Shown: positions 46,659 through 49,553 of the stretch, in pieces
Position numbering within the stretch: position 1 is the first letter of the stretch
Layout: each line of letters begins with the position of its first letter
Source: Candidatus Bathyarchaeota archaeon
GTDB taxonomy: Archaea; Thermoproteota; Bathyarchaeia; Bathyarchaeales; SOJC01
NCBI GenBank assembly: GCA_020341775.1
Contig: CP070835.1
Location: 1,246,229-1,310,228 of the forward strand
DNA: 64,000 nucleotides
Direction: 5' to 3'
Translations under genes and position numbers: made by a program
Notes under the pieces: model-generated
Databases searched by the model: none
What the model was told of the DNA's origin: nothing
The model's input: the letters and a program-made list of their open reading frames with translations, nothing else

Positions 46659-48413
46659 GTGACTACCTTGTCCTTTGAAGATGAACTTAAGGAAAGAATC
46701 AAGAAAATTGCACTTCTAAATGCAGTCAACTTTCAAGGAAAAGCTAGACAAGAGCCAGTTGTCGGGAAGCTGCTCGCTGAAATGCCCCAATTGAAAGCAA
46801 AAATCAAAGACATAACGCCCATCGTAGCCAAGATTGTTGAAGACGTCAATAACATGGATCTCCCAGAACAAAAAATGACCGTGCAAAGGAGTTGGCCTGA
46901 AACTCTTATTCGCAAAAAAATGAACCAACAGAAAGAACTCTCACCCTTGCCGAATGTCGATAAAAATAAAGTTGTTGTGACGCGGTTCTCGCCCAATCCC
47001 GACGCCCCCATCCACTTAGGATCTTCAAGAGCAATAATCTTGTGTCATGAATATGCGAAGATCTACGATGGAAAATTCCTGGTGCGCTTTGAAGACACCG
47101 ATCCAAAGTTGAAACGACCACAATTAATGTTTTATGACCAGATAAAGCGCGACTTAGAGTGGTTAGACTGCGAGCCTGACAAGTATTTCATTCAAAGCGA
47201 TCGTCTCGCCATTTACTACAACCATGCAGAGTGGCTGCTAAAAGAAGGCCATGCATATGTTTGCACCTGCAAATCTGAAGTTTTCAAAAAATTGATTTTG
47301 ACCAAAAAACCCTGCCCCTGCCGCGGCTTCACTCCTCAAGAGCAAATGAGGCGATGGCATAACATGCTTGACGGCACCTACCAAGAGGGAGAAGCCGTTG
47401 TTCGCATCAAGACAGATCTTACTCATCCGAATCCCGCTGTTCGCGACTGGCCTGCGCTTCGCATAATCGACACTGAGAAACATCGCCATCCTCGAGTCGG
47501 CAGCAAATATCGTGTCTGGCCATTATACAACCTTGCATGCGGAATCGATGACCACCTAATGGGCATAACGCACATAATACGTGGAAAAGAACACCTAACG
47601 AACCAAGTTCGACAAGAGTACATGTACGACTATTTTGGTTGGATTTACCCAGAAGCTATTCATTATGGACGTTTAAAAATCGCTGGCGCATATTTAAGCA
47701 AATCAAAGATTATGCAAGGAATACGTGAAGGAATCTATAAGAGCTGGGATGACCCTAGACTTGCAACCTTCTTTGCGCTCAGACTTAGAGGCATTCAACC
47801 TGATGCAATAAGGCAGCTAATAATCGATGTTGGACCAAAAAGCCAAGATATCACGTTGAGCTGGGAAAATCTTTACGCACACAATCGAAAAATAATTGAA
47901 CCTAAAGCCAACCGTTACTTCTTTGTCGCTAATCCTCTAATGCTGGTCGTGAAAGGCATCACCCACACATTCACAGCAGAAATTCCTTCACACCCTGATC
48001 ATCCCGAAAGAGGATCTAGAAAATTCGATGTCCAACCTAGTGAGGGCATCACAAAATTTTGGATCGCAACAAAAGATGCTGAAAACATGGAGGAGGGTCA
48101 AGTAATTCGATTGATGGAACTCTTTAATATAATGGTTGAAAATACAGAAAACGGTGTCTTAAGGGCAGCATTTCATAGTCAAAGATATGATGAAGCTAGA
48201 AAGGTTAAAGCCCCATTAATCCACTGGATCCCAGAAAATAGAGCCGTACGCTGTCATGTTGTAATGCCAGACGCATCAGTCGTCCAACGTCTGGCTGAGG
48301 AGAGCTTCAAAAGGCTACAAAACGGCACTATCGCGCAGTTTGAGCGCTTTGGGTTCATTAGAGTAGATAGCAACAAAGAAGGTCTCCTACAAGCTTATTA
48401 TTGTCACCGCTGA
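46659..48413 (+). CDS. gltX: Glutamyl-tRNA synthetase, archaeal type
   Basis: A class I synthetase of 584 residues with an archaeal/eukaryotic layout. The N-terminal helical part leads to the catalytic HIGH-like motif in RFSPNPDAPIHLGSSRA. The KMSKS-like loop reads GAYLSKSKIMQGI. A four-cysteine motif (CTCKSEVF and CPCRG) lies in the insertion. Domain order ends in the beta-barrel anticodon domains (IEPKANRYFFVANPL). In archaea it commonly charges both tRNA-Glu and tRNA-Gln, with later amidation. It ends the long plus-strand operon; 129 bp without a gene follow. Confidence 0.95.
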   Translation: MTTLSFEDELKERIKKIALLNAVNFQGKARQEPVVGKLLAEMPQLKAKIKDITPIVAKIVEDVNNMDLPEQKMTVQRSWPETLIRKKMNQQKELSPLPNVDKNKVVVTRFSPNPDAPIHLGSSRAIILCHEYAKIYDGKFLVRFEDTDPKLKRPQLMFYDQIKRDLEWLDCEPDKYFIQSDRLAIYYNHAEWLLKEGHAYVCTCKSEVFKKLILTKKPCPCRGFTPQEQMRRWHNMLDGTYQEGEAVVRIKTDLTHPNPAVRDWPALRIIDTEKHRHPRVGSKYRVWPLYNLACGIDDHLMGITHIIRGKEHLTNQVRQEYMYDYFGWIYPEAIHYGRLKIAGAYLSKSKIMQGIREGIYKSWDDPRLATFFALRLRGIQPDAIRQLIIDVGPKSQDITLSWENLYAHNRKIIEPKANRYFFVANPLMLVVKGITHTFTAEIPSHPDHPERGSRKFDVQPSEGITKFWIATKDAENMEEGQVIRLMELFNIMVENTENGVLRAAFHSQRYDEARKVKAPLIHWIPENRAVRCHVVMPDASVVQRLAEESFKRLQNGTIAQFERFGFIRVDSNKEGLLQAYYCHR

Positions 48414-49333: not shown

Positions 49334-49428
49334 TGCTCCGGCCGGGATTCGAACCCGGGTCTCCGGCTCGAAAGGCCGGAATACTTAGCCGGGCTATATT
49401 CGGCAGCGCTCAAGGCTTCTACCGGAGC
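49334..49428 (-). tRNA. tRNA-Glu (UUC) with a 20-nt insertion in the D arm
   Basis: The acceptor stem GCTCCGG pairs with CCGGAGC, with discriminator A. Anticodon arm is CCGGC-CTTTCGA-GCCGG, giving UUC; the T arm is CCGGG-TTCGAAT-CCCGG. The D arm is normal (TATAGCCCGGCTAAGTAT) only if 20 nt (49399-49418) are removed after position 10. The inserted piece can pair with the acceptor-proximal sequence (CGGTAG with CTGCCG), as expected for a bulge-helix-bulge splice site. CCA is not encoded. It is the only tRNA gene seen in the window. Confidence 0.85.
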
Positions 49429-49553
49429 CACTTTTTCCAGAGCATTAACCACATAAACGGTTCTCTTGAATAAACCTATCTCTTGAAGGACCTACAGATT
49501 GAGAGCTAAATACGTAAATATGACCAAGCCACAGAAGATGAGCGGTAGGCAAC

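Follow-up and report, generated by a model that had tools for sequence, protein, structure and literature searches.

A tRNA-Glu(UUC) gene of Candidatus Bathyarchaeota is interrupted after position 10 by a 20-nt insertion which, from its own sequence and those of its relatives, is near certain to be a genuine bulge-helix-bulge (BHB) intron between positions 10 and 11. The leader of the gene carries a copy of the 5' strand of the acceptor stem, and in the genes compared this copy is statistically strongly associated with the intron. We suggest, with modest confidence, that the copy is a surrogate strand acting as a folding switch that forces splicing to precede 5' processing, and that copy and intron have been co-selected in Bathyarchaeota as a pair whose gain or loss is joint. 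The gene lies in a stretch of 64,000 nt that we call the window, and coordinates are those of the window unless a contig is named.

The tRNA-Glu gene

The gene runs on the minus strand from 49428 (G1) to 49334 (A73) with the insertion at 49418-49399, which confirms the original prediction of a tRNA-Glu with a 20-nt insertion in the D arm after position 10. The remaining arms had been described as perfect, and the acceptor, anticodon and T stems are indeed all fully paired. ARAGORN recognises a tRNA-Glu(ttc) whose start it puts at 49409, within the insertion, and the Rfam tRNA match covers model positions 9-63 only, at 34.8 bits. The features of the gene and its leader are listed here.

49419-49428, minus strand: exon 1, positions 1-10, GCTCCGGTAG, the same in 75 of 81 related genes without a 10/11 intron
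49399-49418, minus strand: 20-nt intron AAGCCTTGAGCGCTGCCGAA at position 10/11, placed by register and by relatives
49334-49398, minus strand: exon 2, positions 11-73, anticodon UUC, from the sequence, ARAGORN and Rfam
49421-49424, minus strand: exon side of the BHB central helix H, C5 G6 G7 U8, of which C5-G7 also belong to the acceptor stem
49401-49404, minus strand: intron side of H, GCCG
49418-49420, minus strand: 5' bulge A9 G10 ^ A, with the cut predicted after G10
49398-49400, minus strand: 3' bulge A A ^ U11, with the cut predicted before U11
49405-49417, minus strand: inner hairpin h', AGC-CTTGAGC-GCT, differing on both strands among relatives
49392-49395, minus strand: A14 G15 C16 C17, proposed partner of G-1 G1 C2 U3 in the outer helix h
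49437-49444, minus strand: leader copy of the acceptor 5' strand, TGCTCTGG, complementary to CCGGAGCA (positions 66-73) with one G-U pair
49334-49341, minus strand: 3' acceptor strand and discriminator, the target common to the true 5' strand and the leader copy
49469-49476, minus strand: TATA-like box GGTTTATT, chosen by eye, a putative promoter element

The gene for GluRS (46659-48413) is about 0.9 kb from the tRNA gene (49334-49428). The two are also close together in genomes G002, G003 and G009, and far apart in G011.

Distribution among relatives

A scan of contigs for GluRS found no relative, and relatives were therefore sought by DNA pattern. There are 14 named records with the same gene and insertion, all from Candidatus Bathyarchaeota; seven of these loci repeat genomes already in our set and were left out. 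In the class as a whole the pattern matched a tRNA-Glu gene in 98 of 256 genomes, 21 of which have the 10/11 intron (eight in family f1, two in f2, four in f6 and seven in f7); the pattern needs near-exact exons, so the 158 genomes with no match are no evidence of absence. One pattern match, at a contig edge (G182:C85), was left out. Addition of the f1 genome G005, whose 31-nt intron is too long for the pattern, gives 22 genomes in four families with introns of 18-31 nt. In four f6 tRNA-Glu genes (L059, L107, L108 and L109) the D arm holds two insertions, one at 10/11 and another in the D loop.

For comparison of leaders the 109 loci were reduced to 104 genes, with L170-L174 lying outside the pattern. 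G182 was dropped, being at a contig end, and G160, with a leader of 11 nt, was set aside. The resulting leader set of 102 genes comprises 21 with the 10/11 intron, referred to below as carriers, and 81 without it. The latter, from 78 genomes, consist of 79 UUC and two CUC genes; an insertion elsewhere is present in 10.

Geometry of the intron

The strict register of the gene is CGGU-AGA-AGC-loop-GCU-GCCG-AAU, giving a BHB core of a 4-bp helix H, in which C5-U8 pair with the 3' part of the intron, two 3-nt bulges and an AGC/GCU inner stem. The original prediction cited pairing of CGGTAG with CTGCCG. That pairing exists, but the six base pairs are not themselves a BHB motif, and the part that belongs to one is CGGU (5-8) with GCCG. 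Another topology, with H between the 5' part of the intron and exon 2, was tried and did not fit the sequence. The proposed outer helix h would rely on G-1 of the leader and leave a widened 3' bulge. The predicted cut, after the second nucleotide of each bulge, would remove 20 nt and give a 75-nt product.

In 20,000 base-shuffled versions of the insertion a motif in register as good or better was found in a proportion of 0.00125, and for the set of 21 introns the proportions range from 0 to 0.00735; the G012 intron, which is the same as that of G006, was left out of the register set and of this test. All four H pairs are present in 17 of the 21 introns, including the one described here, and three of the four in the remaining four, which are from f6. 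An inner stem h' of 2-7 bp is present in all 21, with a sequence that varies on both sides among genomes, as in AGC/GCT, AGA/TCT, AGAGC/GCTCT, AGAGTT/AACTCT and AAAG/CTTT.

The predicted junction GCTCCGGTAG-TATAG is also the junction in 75 of the 81 related genes without a 10/11 intron. Exon 1 in the other six differs by one base, being GCTCCGATAG in five and GCTCCGGTGG in one, and TATAG is directly next. The whole predicted product of our gene is identical to none of the 81, the nearest having two differences in 75, and that of G161 is identical to one found among them. The geometry, the conservation in 22 genomes and the existence of relatives without the insertion all support the earlier reading of it as a non-canonical BHB intron.

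Other tRNA genes of the host genome

The host genome is a single contig of 1.92 Mb, listed as 85.85% complete, with some stretches masked. A second intact tRNA-Glu(UUC) gene had been named as a finding that would count against the intron, and none was found in this incomplete and partly masked sequence by Rfam, BLAST or a T-loop pattern. There were 34 Rfam matches (30 loci and four regions), a single BLAST match, which is the gene itself, and 21 further matches to the T-loop pattern, 20 of which were inspected by eye with that at 1849069 left out. BLAST with the gene gave two matches each in seven of the eight other f1 carriers. The same search of the host genome found no tRNA-Glu(CUC) gene either, so it may miss interrupted genes.

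Several other tRNA genes on contig C1 of the host genome (G000) have insertions. That for tRNA-Lys(UUU) (L034, G000:C1:1720900-1721400) has 15 nt inserted in the D arm with, by eye, a BHB-like core GGAU/GUCC at 22/23 and nearly no inner stem. That for tRNA-Arg(UCU) (L067, G000:C1:7100-7380, minus strand) has an insertion of about 15 nt in the D loop, by eye BHB-like near 20/21, and that for tRNA-Asp(GUC) (L086, G000:C1:1726970-1727260) has insertions in the D loop and variable region. There is also a pair of tRNA-Leu genes (L068 and L072, G000:C1:29460-29740 and 362600-362890), identical over the part shown, including downstream bases, with the sequence upstream of L072 masked.

The leader copy

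The leaders of carriers hold TGCTCCG(G) or TGCTCTGG, in one case CGCTCCGG, each of which repeats the acceptor 5' strand and could base-pair with CGGAGC(A) of the 3' acceptor strand. In G027 the copy is extended to GCTCCGGTAA. Scored as GCTCYG in the 35 nt before G1, the copy is present in all 21 carriers (nine in f1, two in f2, four in f6 and six in f7) and in three of the 81 genes without the intron (f4 0/3, f5 0/1, f6 0/10, f7 3/51, f9 0/16). Fisher tests that ignore relatedness give p values of 6e-19 overall, 0.001 within f6 and 2e-6 within f7. The longest run of pairing between leader and 3' strand is 7-8 in all 21 carriers, reaches at least 7 in only 10 of the 81, and is 2-5 in 30 other tRNA genes of the host genome. 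None of the 10 tRNA-Glu genes with an insertion elsewhere has the copy, which thus goes with the 10/11 intron and not with introns generally. Genome G051 has two tRNA-Glu(UUC) genes; the copy is found before the gene with the 10/11 intron and is missing from the other, which has only a D-loop insertion.

In all 21 carriers the start of the copy lies 28-31 nt downstream of the first base of a TATA-like box and 11-16 nt before G1; the boxes were picked by eye, and two leaders have a second match farther upstream. In the gene described here TTTATT begins 30 nt before the copy. From the spacing usual in archaea between TATA box and start, we infer that the transcript would begin at about the base preceding the copy. 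The combination of G at -1 and AGCC at 14-17 that helix h requires is present in 18 of the 21 carriers and in seven of the 81 other genes. Exon 1 is identical in all 21 carriers, so the pairing of the copy holds no information on compensatory change.

The association was also followed on a GluRS tree. For this 60 genomes were hand-chosen, including all those with leader-scored carriers and the three exceptions, and 52 had a GluRS match; the carriers G111, G112, G185 and G187 had none, and the partial G192 sequence was left out. The IQ-TREE tree thus has 51 GluRS sequences; 17 of the 21 leader-scored carriers are represented on it, together with G160 and 33 genomes that lack the intron. On this tree the intron changes at least seven times, and so does the copy. 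In seven independent pairs that differ in the intron, the copy goes with it in five, against it in none and is tied in two (p 0.0625); some alternative pairings give four with, none against and three tied (p 0.125 at worst). Of the three genomes with the copy in a gene without the intron, G018 and G174 group with carriers, as recent loss of the intron would predict, and G165 does not.

Folding models

Helix H takes up C5-G6-G7 and so excludes that part of the acceptor stem, which makes H incompatible with a fully closed acceptor. In all 21 genes a BHB structure with only acceptor pairs 1-4 left in place costs 5.3-11.2 kcal/mol relative to the closed acceptor. The state in which the copy stands in for the 5' strand and the BHB is formed lies below the closed acceptor in 17 of the 21, though not in all. 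The energies for the four f6 genes are unreliable because of their second intron.

With natural leaders, copy and 3' strand pair with a mean probability of 0.92 over the 21 genes and H forms with one of 0.85; when the leader is removed, the acceptor stands at 0.87 and H at 0.22. For shuffled leaders the values are 0.33 (acceptor), 0.05 (leader) and 0.57 (H), and as H rises this far from 0.22 even with a shuffled sequence, the copy itself does not account for all of the effect. The probability of H is just 0.05 in the gene described here and 0.01 in G002, and 0.75-1.00 in the other 19; in our gene the BHB state, at -42.3, is above the free minimum of -47.6. For 17 of the 21 genes, the four from f6 being left out, unconstrained RNAalifold has the copy paired with the 3' strand and h and H both formed, but in place of the bulge at the 5' splice site it predicts an unbroken 7-bp helix. 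After splicing the model gives 0.88 for the leader copy against 0.02 for the true acceptor, so that release of the copy would need tertiary contacts or proteins that are outside the model.

Splicing machinery

The original prediction held that such an intron may need a splicing endonuclease of broad specificity, and the host genome has two EndA paralogues, one catalytic and one degenerate, that support this at the level of sequence. L035 matches the Aeropyrum pernix EndA 3p1z with E 3.6e-44, alignable over 174 residues, and on the alignment by eye it keeps the catalytic Tyr, His and Lys. Its K39-P40-K41 align with K44-P45-R46 of the A. pernix enzyme. This loop feature is linked to broad specificity in the sections of PMC6379350 and PMC12397907 available; for the Crenarchaea-specific loop (CSL) those of PMC12397907 give the order lysine, then Pro or Val, then Lys or Arg, as seen in L035. 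L036, the start of which is masked, is without the Tyr and His, again by eye. The pair fits an (alpha-beta)2 splicing endonuclease, the assembly being a reading of the two sequences. In the A. pernix (alpha-beta)2 enzyme (PDB 3p1z/3ajv) the loop is the same Lys-Pro-basic loop as in L035; the best matches of L036 are 5x89 and 1a79 and not a beta chain.

The host genome also has an rtcB gene. A separate match to the first 61 positions of RtcB (L102, G000:C1:614936-615127) lies apart from it.

A proposed order of processing, and the alternatives

Our proposal is that the gene encodes a functional tRNA-Glu(UUC), from which the 10/11 BHB intron would be removed by the (alpha-beta)2-type endonuclease and the exons probably sealed by RtcB. 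The primary transcript would begin with the copy of the acceptor 5' strand, and this copy would form a provisional acceptor stem with the 3' strand. The true 5' strand, so freed, could then build h (-1 and 1-3), H (5-8) and the bulges, and the endonuclease would cut, followed by joining of the exons. Drawn by the D arm and tertiary contacts, the true 5' strand might then return to its place on the 3' strand, with RNase P removing the leader last. The sequences show the anatomy of gene and leader, its conservation, the joint occurrence of copy and intron, and genes for endonuclease and ligase; that splicing takes place, how the enzyme assembles, where transcription starts, that the strands exchange and in which order the steps come is what we infer, and as a whole we take the mechanism to be the best explanation and somewhat probable.

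Two alternatives deny that there is an intron. If the gene were a pseudogene and the insertion a product of decay, the low Rfam score of 34.8 bits over model positions 9-63 would be explained, but the stems are intact, no other tRNA-Glu was found in the host genome as available, and the insertion is at the same point in 22 genomes with a hairpin that varies yet stays paired. The conserved point of insertion and the junction in relatives without the intron led us to reject this reading, which we consider very improbable. Even less credence can be given to a true 5' end farther in, at GCTGCCG near the ARAGORN start of 49409, with no intron at all, as that acceptor has two mismatches by eye and GCTCCGG, perfect to the 3' strand, precedes the insertion in 21 of 21 carriers; this too was rejected. 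We also rejected the leader copy as the mature 5' strand, separated from the rest by one large intron, as T8-A9-G10 does not come next and in several carriers the whole strand is not matched.

The other two alternatives accept the intron and concern the copy. It is possible, though we lean against it, that we have here a non-canonical BHB intron of the usual kind and that the copy is only a promoter or start-site element with no part in splicing. The near-fixed place of the copy, 28-31 nt from the TATA-like box in 21 of 21, is what such an element would show, and in many of the f7 genes that lack the intron TGATGC stands at a similar place. However GCTCYG tracks the intron and not the gene (21/21 against 3/81, and within f7 6/6 against 3/51), the 30 other tRNA genes of the host genome have pairing runs of just 2-5, and the two genes of G051 are both for tRNA-Glu(UUC) yet differ in the copy as they do in the intron. 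We think it improbable that the copy is a scar of the origin of the intron, left by local duplication of the 5' end and co-inherited by descent. The distributions of intron and copy do mostly coincide, and the longer copy in G027, GCTCCGGTAA, would suit a duplication, but a scar should decay, and in fact the pairing is kept, with C or U at the place where G-U is tolerated, while the remainder of the leader differs, and it is kept across carriers with GluRS end branches of up to 0.7 changes per site.

Comparison with known systems

The earlier claim that introns here are rare outside some Thermoproteales needs correction in that introns at unusual positions are less rare than this suggests: 673 noncanonical introns in 217 archaeal genomes are given in the accessible portion of PMC8450103. 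The portion of PMC3293823 at hand reports D-arm introns in Caldiarchaeum subterraneum. The non-canonical BHB introns of Thermoproteales, Thaumarchaeota and C. subterraneum are likewise short and outside 37/38, but in our case the central helix invades the acceptor stem and there is a copy in the leader. The excerpt of PMC4090602 lists positions 3/4, 20/21, 22/23, 25/26, 29/30, 30/31, 45/46, 53/54, 56/57 and 59/60, and 10/11 is absent from this list; the list ends in "etc." and we thus do not claim 10/11 as unseen.

In the case of Methanopyrus kandleri both tRNA-Glu isoacceptors have a D-loop intron, again an archaeal intron in the D region of tRNA-Glu, and RNA-seq shows that ends are trimmed before introns are removed, the reverse of the order proposed here (PMC3695527, in the extract available). 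The split tRNAs of Nanoarchaeum equitans resemble our proposal in that leaders help to assemble the BHB, and differ in that here the arrangement is in cis and the leader mimics an acceptor strand, with no leader-leader pairing (PMC4033280, likewise from an extract). Among the matches listed in searches of the open-licence literature, we found no description of Bathyarchaeal tRNA introns or of an acceptor-copy leader.

Implications

Introns that overlap the acceptor pose a folding problem, as the splice motif and the mature stem are mutually exclusive. Gene finders that ignore leaders would miss leader copies of this kind. The two tRNA-Glu genes of G051, one with the 10/11 intron and one without, provide a natural control for further work. 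If our proposal is correct, splicing information can reside in cis in the 5' leaders of tRNAs, a tRNA precursor would determine by its own sequence the order in which it is processed, and gain or loss of an intron would be accompanied by a matching change outside the gene.
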